Assembly: GCA_001314545.1 (NCBI GenBank)
Contig: LIHN01000001.1
Location: forward strand, 1-64,000
DNA: 64,000 nucleotides
Reading direction: 5' to 3'
DNA from: Bacteroidetes bacterium HLUCCA01
GTDB lineage: Bacteria; Bacteroidota; Rhodothermia; Balneolales; HLUCCA01
In this document: positions 155-9,825 of the stretch, one piece after another
Position numbering within the stretch: the first letter of the stretch is position 1
Layout of the letters: the number at the start of each line of letters is the position of its first letter
Notes under the pieces: model-generated
Told to the model about the DNA's origin: nothing
The model's input: only the letters and a program-made list of their open reading frames with translations
Databases searched by the model: none
Position numbers and translations under genes: made by a program

Positions 155-312
155 TATCAGCACTTAAACCCGCATTACGTATAGCCATTGTTGGGCAATC
201 GTACTTTTTTTTCGTCCGTCTGTTAGCGTTGGCAAAGACATACTCTTTGGCAAGTTTTGGCTTGTGTGCCCGCTGGTGCGACTTGCCAATGTGTATGGCT
301 TTTAGCGTTGGC
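155..312 (-). repeat. palindromic repeats next to the IS: one complete, one half-site
   Basis: Bases 225-312 form an imperfect palindrome whose arms, GACATACTCTTTGGCAAGT (237-255) and ACTTGCCAATGTGTATGGC (281-299), pair almost fully; it is flanked by direct copies of TTAGCGTTGGC. Bases 169-198 match the terminal arm of the larger palindrome at 4642-4775 (CCCGC...TATA...GTTGGGC), but the partner arm is missing because the IS end lies immediately to the left. A 69-codon frame runs through the whole stretch but follows the repeats and is not called as a gene. Confidence 0.6.
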
Positions 313-313
313 T

Positions 314-1363
314 TTATATGTTCCATCCCATTCTTTTTGCTTTTGATTCTAAAAAGTCGTTTTCAGTCGCCCATTGTCTAAGCAATTCAATTCTTGTTTT
401 CATTTTTTCATCAAATTCACTTTGTCCAAAGGATTTGAGAAGTTTCTCTTGATTCTCTAACCATTTTGTAAATCCTTCACCATTTTCGATTGACATTTTT
501 TCTAAATTGATTATTTGCTCTTCAACTTGTTCATCTGTCATATCTGGAAAAGAACTAATTTCATGAATTGTCTCTTGAGTAGTCGGGTCTTCTTTGGCAA
601 TAATTTCAATGTCGTCTAAATAATTCTCAGGAAGTATTGAAGCAATTTTGTCAATGTTATATTCTTCCAAACCACCAAAACTTGGAATATCAATTCCGAA
701 TTTTTTACTGTAGTCAAACCGAATTACTGAAATAGGATACTTTAATAGGTGTAATGTGCTTACTAGAGAAATAATATCTGCGTAGGAATGCAACCATTTA
801 GAAATTAGCTTTTCTTCAAAAGTTTGAGAATTGCTTTTGAGTAAACCCATTCTGTTTGAATGTTTAGCTCCTTTTGTATGCACGTAATTATGTAGATAAC
901 CAAGGTCTTCGTGTACTTGCTTTAAGTTGTGCTTCTCGTCAAACTTTTTGATATTATCATTTTGCCTTAATATTTTCCAAATCTTGCCTGCTCTTGGCGT
1001 ATTGTCTTTTGAATTAAGCCACTCTTTTACAGCATTATGACCGTCATCATTGATGTTAAAATAAACTGATAACAACCCTAATTCTAAGCCACTTCTTAAT
1101 GAAACAAATGCTTGTTTGTAAAGACCAAAACAGATTTGTGTAAATGACACTTGTAGCTCTTCCCAAGAATCAATAAATGGAAAATAATGACCTGACCAAA
1201 AGTTTTCAAAATTTTGAGGGACAATCATCCCAACAGTATGATAAATCCAACCTAATTCTTCAATTCGTTTTTTTATATCAGGATTCGCTTCAAAGAATTT
1301 TTCAGTTTCCCTGTAAACTTCAATGCTTTTGTCTGGCTCGTATATGTATGGTGAAAACTTCAT
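314..1363 (-). CDS. hypothetical protein, partner of the Type ISP-like enzyme
   Basis: A 349-residue soluble protein without a signal peptide or membrane segment. It is rich in Lys, Glu and aromatic residues and is probably mostly helical. I do not recognise a family with confidence; the central part (about 65-165, with a LGYLHNYVHT segment) has the feel of DUF5677-like or abortive-infection helical proteins, but this is only a resemblance. Its ATG overlaps the stop of the upstream restriction-methylase gene by four bases (ATGA), so the two are almost certainly co-translated. Low G+C, as in the neighbouring genes, suggests shared acquisition. A role in restriction or its control is inferred from position alone. 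Confidence 0.8.
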   Translation of the reverse strand: MKFSPYIYEPDKSIEVYRETEKFFEANPDIKKRIEELGWIYHTVGMIVPQNFENFWSGHYFPFIDSWEELQVSFTQICFGLYKQAFVSLRSGLELGLLSVYFNINDDGHNAVKEWLNSKDNTPRAGKIWKILRQNDNIKKFDEKHNLKQVHEDLGYLHNYVHTKGAKHSNRMGLLKSNSQTFEEKLISKWLHSYADIISLVSTLHLLKYPISVIRFDYSKKFGIDIPSFGGLEEYNIDKIASILPENYLDDIEIIAKEDPTTQETIHEISSFPDMTDEQVEEQIINLEKMSIENGEGFTKWLENQEKLLKSFGQSEFDEKMKTRIELLRQWATENDFLESKAKRMGWNI

Positions 1364-4300
1364 AAAATCTCAATTTTATCAATCTCTTTCATCAGTCTGT
1401 CCGTTTCTGAAAGTGCTACAATGATTTTTTGATAATGCAAAATATCGTCAAACTCCAATTTGCGGTCTTTACGGTCTTTCAGCCATTTTTGAGCAGGTTG
1501 GTAGCCACCAATATAAAATTCCCAAGCTACTTGCGGAACATTGTCAAAATACTGCGTTTCGTTGATGTAAACTTTTCCGTTTTCGTATTTTGTTTTGCCT
1601 ACAAAGTTATTTCCGTCTATTGGGTATTGTGTGATGTAATTCTCTACTACTGAACTTTCCAATAAATGAATTTTACGTATTTCTCCACCCAATTTTACCA
1701 ATTGCCAAAAGGTGTCGGCTTTTTTTGGATAAGGAATTTTAGGAAAGTCTATTTTCAAAAATTCATTGTAGGTTTCACGGTAATTTCTAGAATGTAATAC
1801 CGCATAGATGTAATCTAAAATATCAATTGGTGCAAAAGTGTTGACTTTTATATCTTTCTCGATAGTAAAAATCAAACCTATTTTAACAGCTAAACACTTT
1901 ACTATTTCAGATTTTAAATTTGGAGTTCTTTCTGTTGTATCACCAATTGTTTGTTGTCCATTCGTTTCAGGGTAAATGTAAAGTGGGAAAACACTACCAC
2001 CACCACGATAATATATATTTTGGTCTGAAATTGTGTTGGTGATGAAGGATAAATTCCATTGCATACTTCCAACAGCTTGACCCTGTCTGCCTGATATAAT
2101 TGCAAAGTTGTTACCATCTCGCAAATTTTTCATAATGCGATTTTGACTGTATGCAAAAAAACCTTTTGGCTTGCCTGTGAAATAAGTCCATCTGTTATCA
2201 AATGGACGATATGTAATCATTTTGAAATTGTTGTCGTTAAAATTTTCAGTTAAATCTTCCTTTGCTTTTGATAAAACCCAATCTCTACTATCACTTTTTA
2301 AGTTGTAAAATTTACGCAATTCATTTTCTTCTAAATTTCTAAAGTTTTCAATAATTCGATTTAAAGATGATTTTTCAAATTCGATAGTCACACTATCATT
2401 TTTTGATAAAACACCTAATGAAGATTCTATAAACAAATCTGTTAATTGAAAGCCTTTGTCATACTCGTTTTTATCTTCAAAATCTTTAGGCATTAAAAAA
2501 TAATCTGGAGCAGTTAGTTCAACTTCATTATAAGGTGTTGATTTCAGACTATTTTCGGTTAGAAAATCATATTTTAATTCTCGTTTACCATAAAGGTCAA
2601 AATGATAAACTATGCCTAAATCGTTTGGTTTTTTCTTGCCTGTCTTTATGAAAAAATTGATTGAAACGCCTTGCTCAATGTCAAAAACATTCACATCTGC
2701 TGAACCATCAGAGGCAGTTTCTTTTTTCTTAGCGTTGCCGTGTAAGTCAATCGTATATATTTTGTCATAAGTTTTTAGCAAATGCCAACGCATACCCCTA
2801 AAAGTTGGGTTATCTAAAAAACCGTGAGGATTAATGTATGCTAGAACGCCACTTCCATTTTTCTCAATAAAATGCTGTCCGTAACGCAAAAACTTAACAT
2901 AATCGTCATTGATGAATTTTGAATTTTGCTCTTTTAGTTTTTCCTTTCCGCCTGGCTCTTTTTTGTAATCTTCCATCAATTTCATAATCCATTCGCCTTT
3001 ATTGGCACTTTCTCCGCTATACGGTGGATTTCCAATAACACACATAACGGGTGTGTCTCTTTTGATGTGATTAGCTTCGTTTGCTTCTGTGCTTAACCAA
3101 TTGGCAAATAAAGTTCCTGTGTCTTGGTGGTGTTCTTCTAAACTGTTGGTTAGATAAACTCTAAATCGTTGGTTGGTGGTTGGTTTGTAGCCTGTTTCAG
3201 TTAAAAGCAAATCTAATTTAAGGTGAGCCATTGCGTAACTTGCCATTAGCAACTCAAAACCGTTTAAACGTGGCAATAAATGAGTTTCTACATAATTGCT
3301 CCAAATGCCTTGTTGTCCTTGAAATTTTTTGTGAATGTGTTTTACCACTTCTGCAAGGAAAGTTCCTGTTCCTGTGGCTGGGTCAAGAATTTGCACTTTG
3401 TGAACTTCTTGCTCCACCTTTTTGCCTTGAACATCAACTTTAATTTTGGTTTTGCTTGTATCGGCTAATCCTTGAGGCAAATCAAATTCTGTTTTTAAAA
3501 TGTCGTCAACTGCCCGAACAATAAAATTTACAACTGGTGCAGGAGTGTACCAAACACCACGAGCTTTTCGCAATTTTGGGTCGTACTCACTTAAAAAAGT
3601 TTCGTAAAAATGGATAATTGGGTCTTCCATTTTGGTTGACTTTCCGTAGTTTTTCAAAATTTCTTCAACATTACAAGCCAAGAAAATATCTGTCAAACTA
3701 TCTACAATCCATTTTATACGGTCGTCAATATCGGGTCCTGCAATATAGCCAAACAGTTTTCTCAAAAATGGATTTGATTTTGGAATCAGTTCAGCCGCTT
3801 CCTGTCTGCTGAAAGTTCCCAAAGTTGGGTCGTGCAAACGAGCAGCAAACATTCCGTAAGCAATGGTTTGAGCGTAAACGTCTGCAAAACCTTGCGGTGT
3901 AATGTCGTGAATCAGAATTTGCTTGAATGCCAACATTTGTTCTTTCAGCGTACTGTTTTCTTGATTTTCTTCATCACTTGTCAATGACTTCTCAATAATA
4001 TCAGAAAGAAGGCGGGCTTTGCCCGCCATCATTTCTGCTAATTTTTTTGAGCTTTTTATCGTTTGTCCAACGTGAACGCAAAAATCTTTTATCAGATTTT
4101 CAAAGTTGCCGAAGTTCTCAGTTAAAGGTTTTATTCCCTTGTCAGTTATTTCTGCAATGGCAATTTTGGTAATGAATTCGCCTTCTCGGTACAGATGAAA
4201 GTTGATGTAGTCCGTAAAAATCAAGTTGTTTAAAGAGGCTTTGTATCGGTCAAACTGCTCTTTGTTTCCTGTTTTCTTTGCTCCGTCAAGGTCTTTGTCT

Positions 4301-4518
4301 CCAATGTCTTTAGCTTCTATAAATCCAACAGGAATATCTTTTTTAGTCAAGATGTAATCAGGTGCTCCGCAACTTTGTCTTTTCGGTTCGTTGGTCGCTC
4401 TGATAGTTGGCACCAAACTTTCCAAAAGTTGTTGTAAGTCGCCACGAAAAGTATGTTCGGTTGCGTTTCCGAGTCTGTACCTTTTATCTAAGTTGTCAAT
4501 ATATTGTTCTAATGTCAT
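1360..4518 (-). CDS. Type ISP/IIG-like restriction-modification enzyme (nuclease-methylase fusion)
   Basis: A 1052-residue single-chain restriction-modification protein. Residues 53-70 carry a PD-(D/E)xK nuclease signature (PD at 53-54, EAK at 68-70). A helical spacer follows (about 150-320), then an N6-adenine methyltransferase with motif I DPATGTGTF at 379-387 and catalytic NPPY at 497-500. The C-terminal 400 residues resemble the specificity region of Type ISP enzymes such as LlaBIII. Type ISP enzymes are about 1,500 residues long because they contain an SF2 helicase; no Walker A or DEAD-type motif is visible here, so this is a helicase-less version, closer in layout to Type IIG. It would cut DNA unmethylated at its own recognition site. 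It overlaps the downstream gene by four bases. Confidence 0.9.
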   Translation of the reverse strand: MTLEQYIDNLDKRYRLGNATEHTFRGDLQQLLESLVPTIRATNEPKRQSCGAPDYILTKKDIPVGFIEAKDIGDKDLDGAKKTGNKEQFDRYKASLNNLIFTDYINFHLYREGEFITKIAIAEITDKGIKPLTENFGNFENLIKDFCVHVGQTIKSSKKLAEMMAGKARLLSDIIEKSLTSDEENQENSTLKEQMLAFKQILIHDITPQGFADVYAQTIAYGMFAARLHDPTLGTFSRQEAAELIPKSNPFLRKLFGYIAGPDIDDRIKWIVDSLTDIFLACNVEEILKNYGKSTKMEDPIIHFYETFLSEYDPKLRKARGVWYTPAPVVNFIVRAVDDILKTEFDLPQGLADTSKTKIKVDVQGKKVEQEVHKVQILDPATGTGTFLAEVVKHIHKKFQGQQGIWSNYVETHLLPRLNGFELLMASYAMAHLKLDLLLTETGYKPTTNQRFRVYLTNSLEEHHQDTGTLFANWLSTEANEANHIKRDTPVMCVIGNPPYSGESANKGEWIMKLMEDYKKEPGGKEKLKEQNSKFINDDYVKFLRYGQHFIEKNGSGVLAYINPHGFLDNPTFRGMRWHLLKTYDKIYTIDLHGNAKKKETASDGSADVNVFDIEQGVSINFFIKTGKKKPNDLGIVYHFDLYGKRELKYDFLTENSLKSTPYNEVELTAPDYFLMPKDFEDKNEYDKGFQLTDLFIESSLGVLSKNDSVTIEFEKSSLNRIIENFRNLEENELRKFYNLKSDSRDWVLSKAKEDLTENFNDNNFKMITYRPFDNRWTYFTGKPKGFFAYSQNRIMKNLRDGNNFAIISGRQGQAVGSMQWNLSFITNTISDQNIYYRGGGSVFPLYIYPETNGQQTIGDTTERTPNLKSEIVKCLAVKIGLIFTIEKDIKVNTFAPIDILDYIYAVLHSRNYRETYNEFLKIDFPKIPYPKKADTFWQLVKLGGEIRKIHLLESSVVENYITQYPIDGNNFVGKTKYENGKVYINETQYFDNVPQVAWEFYIGGYQPAQKWLKDRKDRKLEFDDILHYQKIIVALSETDRLMKEIDKIEIL

Positions 4519-4540
4519 TTATTCATTCAATTTCTGTCAG

Positions 4541-4775
4541 AGCGTTGGCAAAAAACAGCTCTTTTGGTTTTTTCAGCGTTGGCTTTCGTGTCGGCAAAAA
4601 ACCAAATGTGCTGTTTGTGCGGTTGGCTTTCTTTGTATGTTGCCCAACGTTTTGCGTATATGACTTGTGGCGGTTTTCGAAGCACTTTCTTGTCGGCTTG
4701 CACCAAATTTACTTAAAAGCACAGACCTTAAATTTACCACTTTACCCGCCATAAGTTATATACGCTGTTGTGCGT
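4541..4775 (-). repeat. two adjacent attC-like imperfect palindromes
   Basis: Bases 4642-4775 form a large imperfect palindrome: GCCCAACG...GCGTATATGACTTGTGGCGG on the left mirrors CCGCCATAAGTTATATACGC...GTTGTGCG on the right, with about 75 bases between arms. Read on the minus strand it begins GCACAAC and ends GTTGGGC, close to the RYYYAAC/GTTRRRY core sites of integron attC. Bases 4541-4627 hold a second palindrome (AACAGC...TTGGTTTTTT against AAAAAACCAA...GCTGTTT) with GCGTTGGC repeats, like the one at 225-312. The stretch lies between the stop of the ATPase gene and the start of the restriction enzyme gene. Confidence 0.6.
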
Positions 4776-4783
4776 TCGTATTT

Positions 4784-6304
4784 TTAATTATTGTCCTGAA
4801 TAAATTGTCTCATTTCTCCAATTGACTGTTGAAGTTGGTCATTTGTAAACCTCGGATTTTCGGTATTCTCTGGATGATGAATTTGATGTCTTATAAACTC
4901 ACTTAGTACTTTTTGTTCCTCGATAATATTACCGTTTCTAATTCTCTTGTATGACATTGTCGCCTTTCCATTTCTGTAATCGGATAACAACCGCTCACTC
5001 TCTATGTAACCATAAAGTTCATTGTGATATTCATCATTTGACTCTCCGAATGCTAAGTAATTGACCTCATTTAGGGATGGATAAGGCAAATCGCCTCTTT
5101 CAACCTTGATTACCTCTTTTCCATTGTTGTTTCGTACAAGGTGAAGATGCTCAAAGTCAAGTAACTTTACTATCGAAGGGCTATGAGTAGTCATTAAAAC
5201 CTGTGTATTATCTGCTTTTGAAAGCTCGATAAAAGCTTCGATTAATTTTCTTTGATGATTAGGATGTTGAGATGTTTCCGGTTCTTCAATTGCATAAATT
5301 ATGCTGGGAATGTTCTCTTGACTTTTTCTTCTTTCTGCTTCCGCTCTAAAGAAGTTTAAAAGAACTAATCTTTTGACTCCACTTCCTCGCTTATTTATTG
5401 GTATATCTTCATCTGAGGAAATCGATACACTTTTAAAAACATCAATCCATTTTAAACTGTCTGGACTTGGAATCACAGGAGTCAGTGAATCCGCAATTTC
5501 AGGATTCATTTCATTAAGTTTTTCTAAAGTTTTTGTTGACACTTCGATAAGCTTCTTTTCGACTTCTTCTGCAACCTTGTCTAAGCTTGTCTTTAAAGTA
5601 TCATCTTTTAAGATTTCCTGAACTGCAATTTTCATTGGGTTTTGAACTTCACTATCTCCATCACTATTCTTTCTGTCCGACTGAAACAGTGAGTACAGTG
5701 GCATATAATTTTTAAGTTGCTCCCAAGTGTTTTTCGCGTCAAGTTTAGCAAGTTCGATTTCAATTTCTTCTAATTGTAAGTCGTCTGAATAGTGATTCCA
5801 AATCGCTTTTCGAATAACAGCATTTTTTGTTTTATCCTCGCACTCTATTTCATCAGTTAACAACTTTTTTAAGTCGGAATTTTTCTTTAACAAGAGTTCT
5901 GCACAGTCTGGGTTATTTGGATGATTGGCTTTAATAAATACTTTTTCCTTACCTGCATTTGGATAACGCTTAACTACCTCAAGAGTCCCATCAGGCTGAA
6001 GTAAGTACTCATCTTGAAGGGTTGTTGGATTTGTAGAATCAAGGGTTAAAGAGTCAGGTAGTTCCTCGAAAACTACACTTATCTTGATTTCATTATTTCC
6101 ATTGATTCTGCATTTTTTATTGATGTCATCTTTGTCAATTTTGATAGTACCCTTATTCTCATTAAAAAAGATGTCTAAAGCTTCAAGTATGGATGACTTA
6201 CCCACATCGTTCTGTCCAACAAAAACAGTGAGATTTCCAAACTCAATTGTAGTTTCAGTTTCGTATCCTCGGAAATTTTCGATTCGTACTTTCTTAATTT
6301 TCAT
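4784..6304 (-). CDS. OLD-like AAA ATPase with HEPN-like motif near the C-terminus, probable defence protein
   Basis: A 506-residue protein starting at the ATG at 6304 (MKIKKVRIENFRG, the usual start of SMC/OLD-like ATPases); a longer frame to 6397 would run into the palindrome upstream. Walker A is GQNDVGKS (30-37), a signature-like RGSGVKR lies at 306-312, Walker B is IIYAIEEPE (335-343) and the H-loop is TTHSP (372-376). No TOPRIM domain is visible, so it is not a GajA- or OLD-type nuclease. The last 75 residues contain RHQIHHPEN (472-480), which fits the Rx4-6H active-site pattern of HEPN RNases. The architecture suggests a nucleic-acid sensor with a toxic tail, as in several anti-phage systems; this is inferred. 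It stands alone between palindromic repeats. Confidence 0.85.
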   Translation of the reverse strand: MKIKKVRIENFRGYETETTIEFGNLTVFVGQNDVGKSSILEALDIFFNENKGTIKIDKDDINKKCRINGNNEIKISVVFEELPDSLTLDSTNPTTLQDEYLLQPDGTLEVVKRYPNAGKEKVFIKANHPNNPDCAELLLKKNSDLKKLLTDEIECEDKTKNAVIRKAIWNHYSDDLQLEEIEIELAKLDAKNTWEQLKNYMPLYSLFQSDRKNSDGDSEVQNPMKIAVQEILKDDTLKTSLDKVAEEVEKKLIEVSTKTLEKLNEMNPEIADSLTPVIPSPDSLKWIDVFKSVSISSDEDIPINKRGSGVKRLVLLNFFRAEAERRKSQENIPSIIYAIEEPETSQHPNHQRKLIEAFIELSKADNTQVLMTTHSPSIVKLLDFEHLHLVRNNNGKEVIKVERGDLPYPSLNEVNYLAFGESNDEYHNELYGYIESERLLSDYRNGKATMSYKRIRNGNIIEEQKVLSEFIRHQIHHPENTENPRFTNDQLQQSIGEMRQFIQDNN

Positions 6305-6331
6305 TGTATCTGATTTTGTCGATTTTATATG

Positions 6332-6470
6332 ACGCACAACGGGTATCATATATATACAGTGCAGGGGTGCGGGCTTCAAAACTATCCACGGTGACAAAAT
6401 ATTATGCGTAGTAGACTGGTTAAATTAAGCACATAACCCTGCATTGGATATATATGATGTTGTTGTGTGT
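6332..6470 (-). repeat. attC-like imperfect palindrome
   Basis: The outer arms, GCACAACGGGTATCATATAT on the left and ATATATATGATGTTGTTGTG on the right, are near-perfect complements. The pairing continues inward through CAGTGCAGGG against CCCTGCATTG, with about 65 bases of loop. The layout matches the palindrome at 4642-4775: GCACAAC at one end, GTTGTG at the other, and TATA-rich inner arms. It occupies nearly the whole gap between the GH43-like gene and the ATPase gene and leaves little room for a separate promoter. Confidence 0.6.
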
Positions 6471-6483
6471 AGTAATCCTTGCA

Positions 6484-7521
6484 TTACCAATCAATTGGAT
6501 ATTCTATTTCAGCGTATCCAATATAAAAGTTACTAAAGCTATTTATTTCAGCCATATACCAAACACGTATTTTGTTGTTTTCAATTAGTACTGCTGGAGC
6601 AATAAGTCCTGACTCTTCCCAATCATATGTTTTGGAAATAATCGGTTTGGAGTAAACTTCCCACGGTCCAAAAGGATTTTCTGAACGTGCCAACCCAATT
6701 GATGAATTATTATTGCCAATATCGCTGGTAAAGAATAAGTAAAATATTCCATCAGGAGCTTTAACAAGTTCTGCTTCTCGTGGGTTATCCAACGACCAAC
6801 CAACTTCTGAATTACTTATCAGCAGTTGTTCGCCTTTTTGCCAGTTTAACCCATCATTAGATGTCGCTCCAAATAAGCCATAACCTTGATTGGCAAGTGC
6901 CCATCCCGCATAAATCATGTAGTATGTGCTATCGTGTTTTATTACCGAAGGACTAAATAGCCCATCAATATCAACATCGCTATCTGGCAATAGTATTGGG
7001 TCGTCAAGAAACCTTTCAAAAACAAGCCCATCAGGTGATTTCGCTACCCCAATTTTTCCATTAGCTACTATGTTGTTTACCCCGTCAACCCCTTCGCTAT
7101 ACCCAGTATAATACATGAAGTACTCATTATCAATTTTTTTTACAAATGCTGTTTCCAGGATTTTATCCCATGAGCTAGTGTCATTTTCTAAAGTAACACT
7201 TTCACCATAGTATAATGATTTGGCAAAATCCCAGTCTATACCATCTGATGACTCTGCAACACTAATAACGATTTGAAGATTATCAGGATTATCACCGTCT
7301 CCATCGCCTGTAATTATTAAGGAAGTGTAATACATAAGCAGTTTATTATCAACCCTAATTACTGAGGGGTCCCCTGCCAGCCAGTTACCTTCCCAGACTG
7401 GGGTGGGGTGTTTCGTGGCAATTCCCGAATTTACATCGGCTAGGTCATCATCCTTCTTACAATTAGTTAAAATAATCAGCACTCCAATTATTCCAATAAT
7501 ATAATAACTCAGTTTATTCAT
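6484..7521 (-). CDS. GH43-like five-bladed propeller lipoprotein
   Basis: A 345-residue lipoprotein: the hydrophobic N-terminus ends in LILTNC with the lipidated Cys at about residue 21, followed by KKDDD. The rest shows repeated propeller-blade motifs of the arabinanase/levansucrase/invertase superfamily: GDPSVIRVDNKLLMYYT, then SVIKHDSTYYMIYAGW and EAELVKAPDGIFYLFFT. This would place a glycan-processing or glycan-binding protein on the outer membrane surface. The exact substrate cannot be read. The ATG at 7521 was chosen because it gives a proper signal peptide; an upstream GTG (7545) adds eight charged residues. It is the only clearly metabolic-type gene among the island's defence-like genes. 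Confidence 0.8.
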   Translation of the reverse strand: MNKLSYYIIGIIGVLIILTNCKKDDDLADVNSGIATKHPTPVWEGNWLAGDPSVIRVDNKLLMYYTSLIITGDGDGDNPDNLQIVISVAESSDGIDWDFAKSLYYGESVTLENDTSSWDKILETAFVKKIDNEYFMYYTGYSEGVDGVNNIVANGKIGVAKSPDGLVFERFLDDPILLPDSDVDIDGLFSPSVIKHDSTYYMIYAGWALANQGYGLFGATSNDGLNWQKGEQLLISNSEVGWSLDNPREAELVKAPDGIFYLFFTSDIGNNNSSIGLARSENPFGPWEVYSKPIISKTYDWEESGLIAPAVLIENNKIRVWYMAEINSFSNFYIGYAEIEYPIDW

Positions 7522-7540
7522 AGGCTCGTTTTTATTATTA

Positions 7541-7610
7541 CACACAACTCGTTTATATACGCAATAAACATGCGTATATCATACGGGAAAGGATTTATAT
7601 GCGCATGTTT
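7541..7610 (-). repeat. palindromic repeat, possibly a degenerate attC-like site
   Basis: AAACATGCGTATAT (7566-7579) and ATATGCGCATGTTT (7597-7610) are inverted copies matching at 13 of 14 positions. A smaller hairpin, ATACGCA/TGCGTAT, overlaps the left arm. CACACAAC at 7541-7548 resembles the end of the palindrome at 6332-6470, but no matching outer end is evident on the right, so the site is either degenerate or a different hairpin. Confidence 0.4.
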
Positions 7611-7863
7611 GTGGTCGTTTAATATTCATTGGAGTTGAACCGATTAGCTATATTTCAAAAACACTAAATCTGTACGACCCAATTGTGTGTATATACCGTG
7701 CAATACATCAGCTGAGTAGCAATTGCAATGTAGTGAAATACTTTTTAAATCCAAATTAATGACATCATTAGTGTAGCTATATTTATCAGTCGCTAGCAGT
7801 TTGTGGTATTCAGCTTGATTCACGATACAATCAGCTTCTTCTGAGGCTGTATGTTTTCTAAGC
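7611..7863. other. gap with no convincing gene
   Basis: A minus-strand frame covers 7644-8009 (121 codons), but its first 146 bases lie inside the NERD gene in another frame and the protein matches nothing I recognise. Its last 70 residues have ordinary composition, so a short unknown gene cannot be excluded. No RNA gene or clear terminator was seen. Confidence 0.35.
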
Positions 7864-9561: not shown

Positions 9562-9825
9562 GCAACACTGTTTTTCATGTTGTAATGTTGCAAGGACATC
9601 TAAGCTATATATTAATAATAATTTATGATGCAACAATTTGGCAACATACCATGTTGCAAATGTTGCCGATTTGCAACATGCCTGTTGCCGAAATGTTGCC
9701 AAAATGTTGCACTCTATTTAGGCCAAAACTCCCTATGCGTAAACTAAATTATCTTTATAAAATAAATATATTATGTAGAAATAGGTATTTGGTTTAAAAA
9801 ATTAACACGTGCAACATTGCAACAC
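9562..9825. repeat. cluster of GCAACA/TGTTGC motifs in an AT-rich gap
   Basis: Twelve copies of the hexamer GCAACA or its complement TGTTGC fall within about 265 bases, in both orientations. Starts are near 9562, 9587, 9630, 9642, 9653, 9661, 9673, 9683, 9694, 9705, 9811 and 9819. Several are extended to ATGTTGCAA or TTGCAACAT. They sit in a 600-base stretch (9396-10001) with no believable gene and with AT-rich DNA around 9740-9800. This looks like an array of binding sites, for example for an element-encoded replication, excision or regulatory protein. Confidence 0.55.

Follow-up and report, generated by a model that had tools for sequence, protein, structure and literature searches.

Large palindromes separate co-oriented genes at the start of contig C7 in the genome of Bacteroidetes bacterium HLUCCA01 (3.37 Mb, 22 contigs), raising the question of whether these genes are mobile cassettes and, if so, what moved them. 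A first-pass annotation of the window, that is, of the whole 64,000-nt stretch of DNA analysed here, had proposed an integrase-less array of attC-bounded cassettes resembling a CALIN, which IntegronFinder 2 defines as at least two attC sites and no IntI (PMC9024848). Comparison with related loci argues that the locus is very probably the head of an integron-like cassette array, of a type that occurs across Bacteroidota, whose own recombinase has been lost.

Read along the minus strand, on which all of its features lie, the array begins with an attI-like site (7531–7612) and continues through a GH43-like cassette and its attC (6334–6468), an AAA-ATPase cassette and its attC (4642–4773), and a Type IIG restriction–modification (RM) cassette whose attC (151–196) is cut by an insertion sequence. 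The shared orientation of the cassette genes that had been remarked on holds for every one of them. Defence functions, attributed by the annotation to the cassettes in general, are found in two of the three. The RM cassette encodes a 1052-aa Type IIG restriction-methyltransferase with a Type ISP C-terminal domain (1360–4518; PADLOC REase_MTase_IIG, 1209 bits; PF18135, 278 bits), and its second gene is an open reading frame for a 349-aa protein (314–1363) that had no match in Pfam or PADLOC searches; the AAA-ATPase cassette encodes a 506-aa AAA_15/AriA-OLD-like ATPase (4784–6304; PF13175, 305.6 bits; PADLOC AriA, 267.7 bits). The third cassette instead carries the gene of a GH43/GH130-like lipoprotein (6484–7521; PF04616, 47.8 bits; PF04041, 41.9 bits).

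The two ends of the array had been read as a weaker palindrome copy and a half-site. The former, placed at 7541–7610, is a real feature but not a weak attC: the site (TTTATTGCGTATATAAACGAG|TTGTGTG, 7531–7612, predicted crossover 7548|7547) matches, at 85% over 82 nt, the sequence just 3′ of a recombinase remnant elsewhere in the same genome (G000:C17:72409–72756), and is attI-like by virtue of this match. The recombinase gene that would accompany such a site is missing, and the open reading frames of the window's first 14 kb include no recombinase. An attI-like site in this position makes the locus an array head minus its recombinase rather than a floating CALIN, so that of the comparison with CALINs the absence of a recombinase stands and the floating state does not, even though two full sites and one broken site within 7.6 kb, with attC judged by the model built here, and no IntI would place the locus in that category. 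At the opposite end, the half-site reported near 169–198 proved to be the genuine left half of the RM cassette attC, since the sequence running from 196 to 151 (GCCCAACAATGGCTATACGTAATGCGGG..., with R'' = GCCCAAC at 196–190) is homologous to intact sites at L086:4359–4489, L075:6469–6599 and also in L062. It is interrupted at about 150 by the end of an insertion sequence (1–150), which, on our own reading of its translation (MATHKRLTAHDRERIMVLLGQGHKPSQIA), we take to be IS30-like. The N-terminus of the transposase runs off the contig, and 99% copies of the element close contigs C17, C3 and C1.

A covariance model trained on 39 sites from other genomes, with the window excluded, found exactly two matches in the 64 kb, at 4642–4773 (113 bits, E = 8e-27; predicted crossover 4648|4647) and 6334–6468 (64.4 bits, E = 2.5e-14; predicted crossover 6340|6339). 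The covariance search that had been recommended as a check thus returned scores far above background, with a model built here, at both of the large palindromes proposed between the cassette genes, whose outer cores are complementary and whose inner arms span about 20 bp. A strict-core palindrome scan missed most sites of this type, which were found with a 125–137-nt length filter and the covariance model; Rfam contained no family matching them. Across 42 sites of about 131 nt, common R cores enclose a 20-bp inner helix that carries 299 double changes (105 in shuffled alignments), with 89.5% of cells paired, a percentage inflated because the sites were partly picked for palindromy, and slid controls came nowhere near these values. 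Unconstrained RNAalifold returned the same helix without bulges, with double changes in 20 of 24 pairs. The training sites, too, were partly picked for palindromy, a choice that bears less on covariation and on the asymmetry of wobbles and does not inflate the closure test described below.

The two strands of these sites are not equivalent. In 38 of the 42 sites, one helix pair reads as a G·T wobble on the bottom strand and as mismatched A·C on the top; among top-strand mismatches, A·C occurs 21 times and C·A once; and the bottom strand folds more stably in 32 of 42 sites (p = 2e-5). Both asymmetries agree with a single-stranded bottom-strand substrate without proving it. Window-type sites have the imperfect palindrome, R''/R' cores and G|TT crossover of integron attC. 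Extrahelical bases, present as single-base bulges in canonical attC of the same order, are absent from their bulge-free consensus helix. A model built from these canonical sites (R2) recovers a minority of window-type sites, all of which score below 35 bits and lie outside the window, and the window-type model gives canonical attC less than 30 bits. The window's sites belong to a Bacteroidota attC type distinct from the canonical family found beside IntI in the same order, the two families being distantly alike at up to 35 bits across models.

Other genomes mark where the cassettes begin and end. Homology to the RM cassette starts exactly at GTTGGGC (window 4648) in L105, L095/L056, L086, L075 and L062, with unrelated flanks. 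The genomes whose RM homologues share this 5′ region, with DNA that stays near-identical as far as GTTGGGC, are those of Empedobacter, Psychroflexus, a Balneolaceae MAG and two further MAGs, and the nearest RM homologue lies in a Balneolales MAG. The RM cassette attC is near-identical in L086, L075 and L062 and is followed there by different R' boxes (GTTGTGT, GTTAGCC and GTTAACC, respectively) and different genes. Comparing gene–palindrome junctions among genomes, as had been suggested, thus revealed cassette boundaries that are exact at the GTT core, and these boundaries, with the covariance scores, bear out the proposed integrase-less cassette array. Two sister genomes, whose recombinase is a divergent one, share 97 identical nt ending at AAG|TTG, beyond which their cassettes differ; pairs with identity before or after G|TT were too noisy under gapped alignment, and only the L139/L140 pair was used.

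The R'' core of a cassette is expected to match the cassette's own 5′ core, because both are one site in the circle. Among 101 cassettes, the four variable bases matched the own 5′ core at all four positions in 78 and the adjacent R' in 8 (random mean 1.48 of 4; p = 8e-12). As a positive control, cassettes beside canonical IntI in the same order matched the own 5′ core in 33 of 38 cases and the adjacent R' in 2 of 38. All three window cassettes match at four of four bases (GTTGTGT/ACACAAC, GTTGTGC/GCACAAC and GTTGGGC/GCCCAAC). Complementarity of R'' to the own 5′ core indicates that circular forms of the cassettes, closed at G|TT, have existed, and their movement as circles through G|TT exchange is strongly supported by these core sequences.

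Intact relatives of the locus consist of a tyrosine recombinase that resembles IntI but lacks the I2 domain, an adjoining attI-like site and a one-orientation array of cassettes, units bounded by the 131-nt strand-asymmetric attC. A search that used the intact L104 protein (288 aa) as query found homologues in 84 of 394 Bacteroidota genomes (E ≤ 1e-60). The family contains PF00589; the I2 region is absent in alignments with VchIntIA and local IntIs, and TIGR02249 matches the recombinase in two pieces at 204–211 bits, below its cut-off of 265. The attI-like motif lies 67–124 nt past the stop codon in 28 of the 30 best homologues, compared with 2.3% of control positions, so that these recombinases have an attI-like site beside them as integron integrases do. 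At 20 loci, all 106 of 106 sites are downstream of the I2-less recombinase and co-oriented with it. A divergent subtype has its attI-like motif about 100 bp upstream of the gene start, with exchange at AAG|TTG and the array on the same side (10 of 10 sites upstream). This linkage and geometry suggest that the I2-less recombinase excises cassettes and inserts them at attI or attC through G|TT exchange. Strand asymmetry suggests that its substrate is the bottom strand of attC in folded form; the direction of attC would then be marked by the fixed G·T wobble (A·C in the top strand), in place of extrahelical bases. NCBI labels such proteins 'site-specific tyrosine recombinase/integron integrase' (NF040815), so their likeness to integron integrases had already been noted at the level of the protein name.

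With integrons and CALINs the system shares an IntI-related tyrosine recombinase, an attI-like site, cassettes of about 1 kb that follow one another in one orientation, RYYYAAC-like/GTTRRRY-like cores, G|TT exchange and the circle-closure signature. It differs in a recombinase without the IntI-specific domain, in an attC L-helix of uniform length (about 131 nt) that has a fixed G·T/A·C position and no extrahelical bases, and in an array that often follows the recombinase gene on its 3′ side, with the same orientation. Surveys of integrons recognise an integrase by PF00589 plus the additional IntI domain (PMC9668308), a requirement by which an I2-less system is missed by construction; a 2001 paper cited there calls this domain, in its title, necessary for activity. 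The domain is absent from the family described here, the recombinase itself is absent from the array in the window and the attC helix is without extrahelical bases, and for the lack of the domain and of these bases we do not file the system as a standard integron. Archaeal integrons differ from it as well, as their IntIs retain the IntI-specific domain (PMC9668308).

Tyrosine recombinases associated with the IS91 family, such as those beside ISVsa3, are likewise I2-less, about 48% identical and members of a common clade, but they adjoin an IS91-like transposase; in one ISVsa3-bearing plasmid region (L285, 4.8 kb), no site of the window type was found. In trees, an IntI clade (100/99) stands apart from the I2-less clade, and both stand apart from Xer (98–99% bootstrap). 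XerC, XerD and XerA share the fold, the catalytic motifs and the lack of I2 with the recombinases described here but form a separate clade, and we know of no cassette arrays attributed to Xer enzymes. The I2-less clade also contains one ISVsa3-linked and one phage recombinase, so that membership of the clade is not specific to cassette systems. An initial placement of it as the simple sister of IntI was softened, as added IS91-linked and phage recombinases fell inside or near these clades.

Window-type sites were found in 140 of 296 sampled Bacteroidota genomes (about 47%; E ≤ 1e-8). They occur in 61 of 70 genomes with the recombinase and in 79 of 226 without a detected one (p = 4e-15, taking all 296 genomes to be among the 394 searched), and all 20 genomes with I2-less recombinase loci have them. 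The 79 recombinase-negative carriers indicate that cassettes can sit without a recombinase or use other enzymes. A rival reading takes the locus for an ordinary CALIN in which a canonical, I2-bearing IntI of this or a donor cell moves the cassettes and the I2-less recombinase is a bystander. Canonical IntI is indeed common in the order, passing the cut-off in 22 of 41 genomes, yet 16 of the 20 genomes with an I2-less recombinase and arrays, including complete genomes with 21–36 sites, have no canonical IntI over the cut-off. The site families are distantly alike (at most 35 bits across models) and the window's genome holds a truncated IntI (C14:7558), but canonical arrays use a separable, bulged attC family that stays below 30 bits on the window-type model, and it is the I2-less gene that sets the position and orientation of all 106 sites. 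We consider such an ordinary CALIN improbable.

Still less probable is that host XerC/XerD or another recombinase handles the cassettes while the I2-less gene hitchhikes as a first, cassette-like passenger. XerC/D are present in the window's genome, and many genomes have sites and no detected recombinase; however, in 28 of 30 homologues the attI-like motif keeps its place at the 3′ end of the gene and, in the divergent subtype, it accompanies the array to the upstream side of the gene, a fixed lineage-specific geometry that argues against a passenger. We give next to no credence to the palindromes being no more than repeats (REP/BIME-like, or terminators) that lie between genes gained by horizontal transfer: their intergenic position and conserved length would suit such repeats, but the exact cassette boundaries would be left unexplained, and the cassette-specific core complementarity in 78 of 101 cassettes refutes this reading. 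An integron-like array head, derived from a system with an I2-less recombinase, thus remains our preferred reading of the window.

On balance, we lean towards a broader view in which Bacteroidota hold a phylum-wide second kind of integron, with an I2-less tyrosine recombinase, a folded single-strand attC and a G·T wobble that marks direction. If an I2-less recombinase does recombine folded attC, the I2 domain would be dispensable for cassette capture, and integron-like systems may predate I2 or have arisen twice. In the literature, IntI is discussed as having arisen when a Xer-like ancestor acquired I2, a step for which intermediates are said to be missing (PMC7790495). A present-day I2-less recombinase accompanied by attI, attC and cassettes opens this question to direct testing. 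For Bacteroidetes, IntegronFinder 2.0 noted that earlier work had found only In0 and reported one complete integron, in Salinibacter ruber (PMC9024848), and our search of open-access papers in PMC found no description of an I2-less integron-like system. The sites open a large unread pool of cassettes, defence genes included, and their Bacteroidota carriers include Chryseobacterium plasmids. The I2-less recombinase is present on two of these plasmids, with several cassette sites downstream in one. The plasmid of Chryseobacterium sp. SNU WT5 (NZ_CP041688.1, L284) carries the I2-less recombinase and cassettes and, between cassettes and close to an attC, also a group II intron reverse transcriptase.

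No intact recombinase, I2-less or canonical, was found in the window's genome, where all related copies are broken, so the array is probably immobile at present and could move only with a recombinase acting in trans. Two remnants of the recombinase on contig C17 (72409–72756 and 169031–169411; L018 and L019), one without its middle and one without its N-terminal part, both still have an attI-like site behind them, together with one or two attC. A truncated canonical IntI at G000:C14:7558–8301 (L017) covers profile positions 1–244 with 218 bits. In another genome (G014), an I2-less recombinase (L184, 6324–9937) is split by two transposase genes, IS982-like and IS1380-like in appearance, and attI-like sequence lies 3′ of it. 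L021–L024, from the same order, are arrays of canonical IntI whose attC form a family of their own, and some genomes hold both systems side by side. Matches to TATAAACRAGTT in G020, G011 and G003:C310, which have no adjoining recombinase, were set aside as chance.

Palindromes of a second type, with GCGTTGGC repeats, had been reported to accompany two of the large ones. They are real but are part of the RM cassette and not attC, lying near both of its ends with the form GCCAACGC ... GCACATTTGG ... CCAAAAGAGC ... GCCAACGCT. The GCCAACGC-type element at the 3′ end (225–320, arms 234–255/281–302) is conserved along with the cassette in other genomes, and the one at the 5′ end (4541–4628) has 87–98% identity in numerous further genomes that carry this cassette. 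Similar palindromic elements in other arrays could be placed in 18 cases, in 10 of which they follow the attC before them at a distance of 20–33 nt. Farther into the window, at 9628–9712, an intergenic nested palindrome consists of TGTTGCAA/TTGCAACA repeats and is unrelated to attC.
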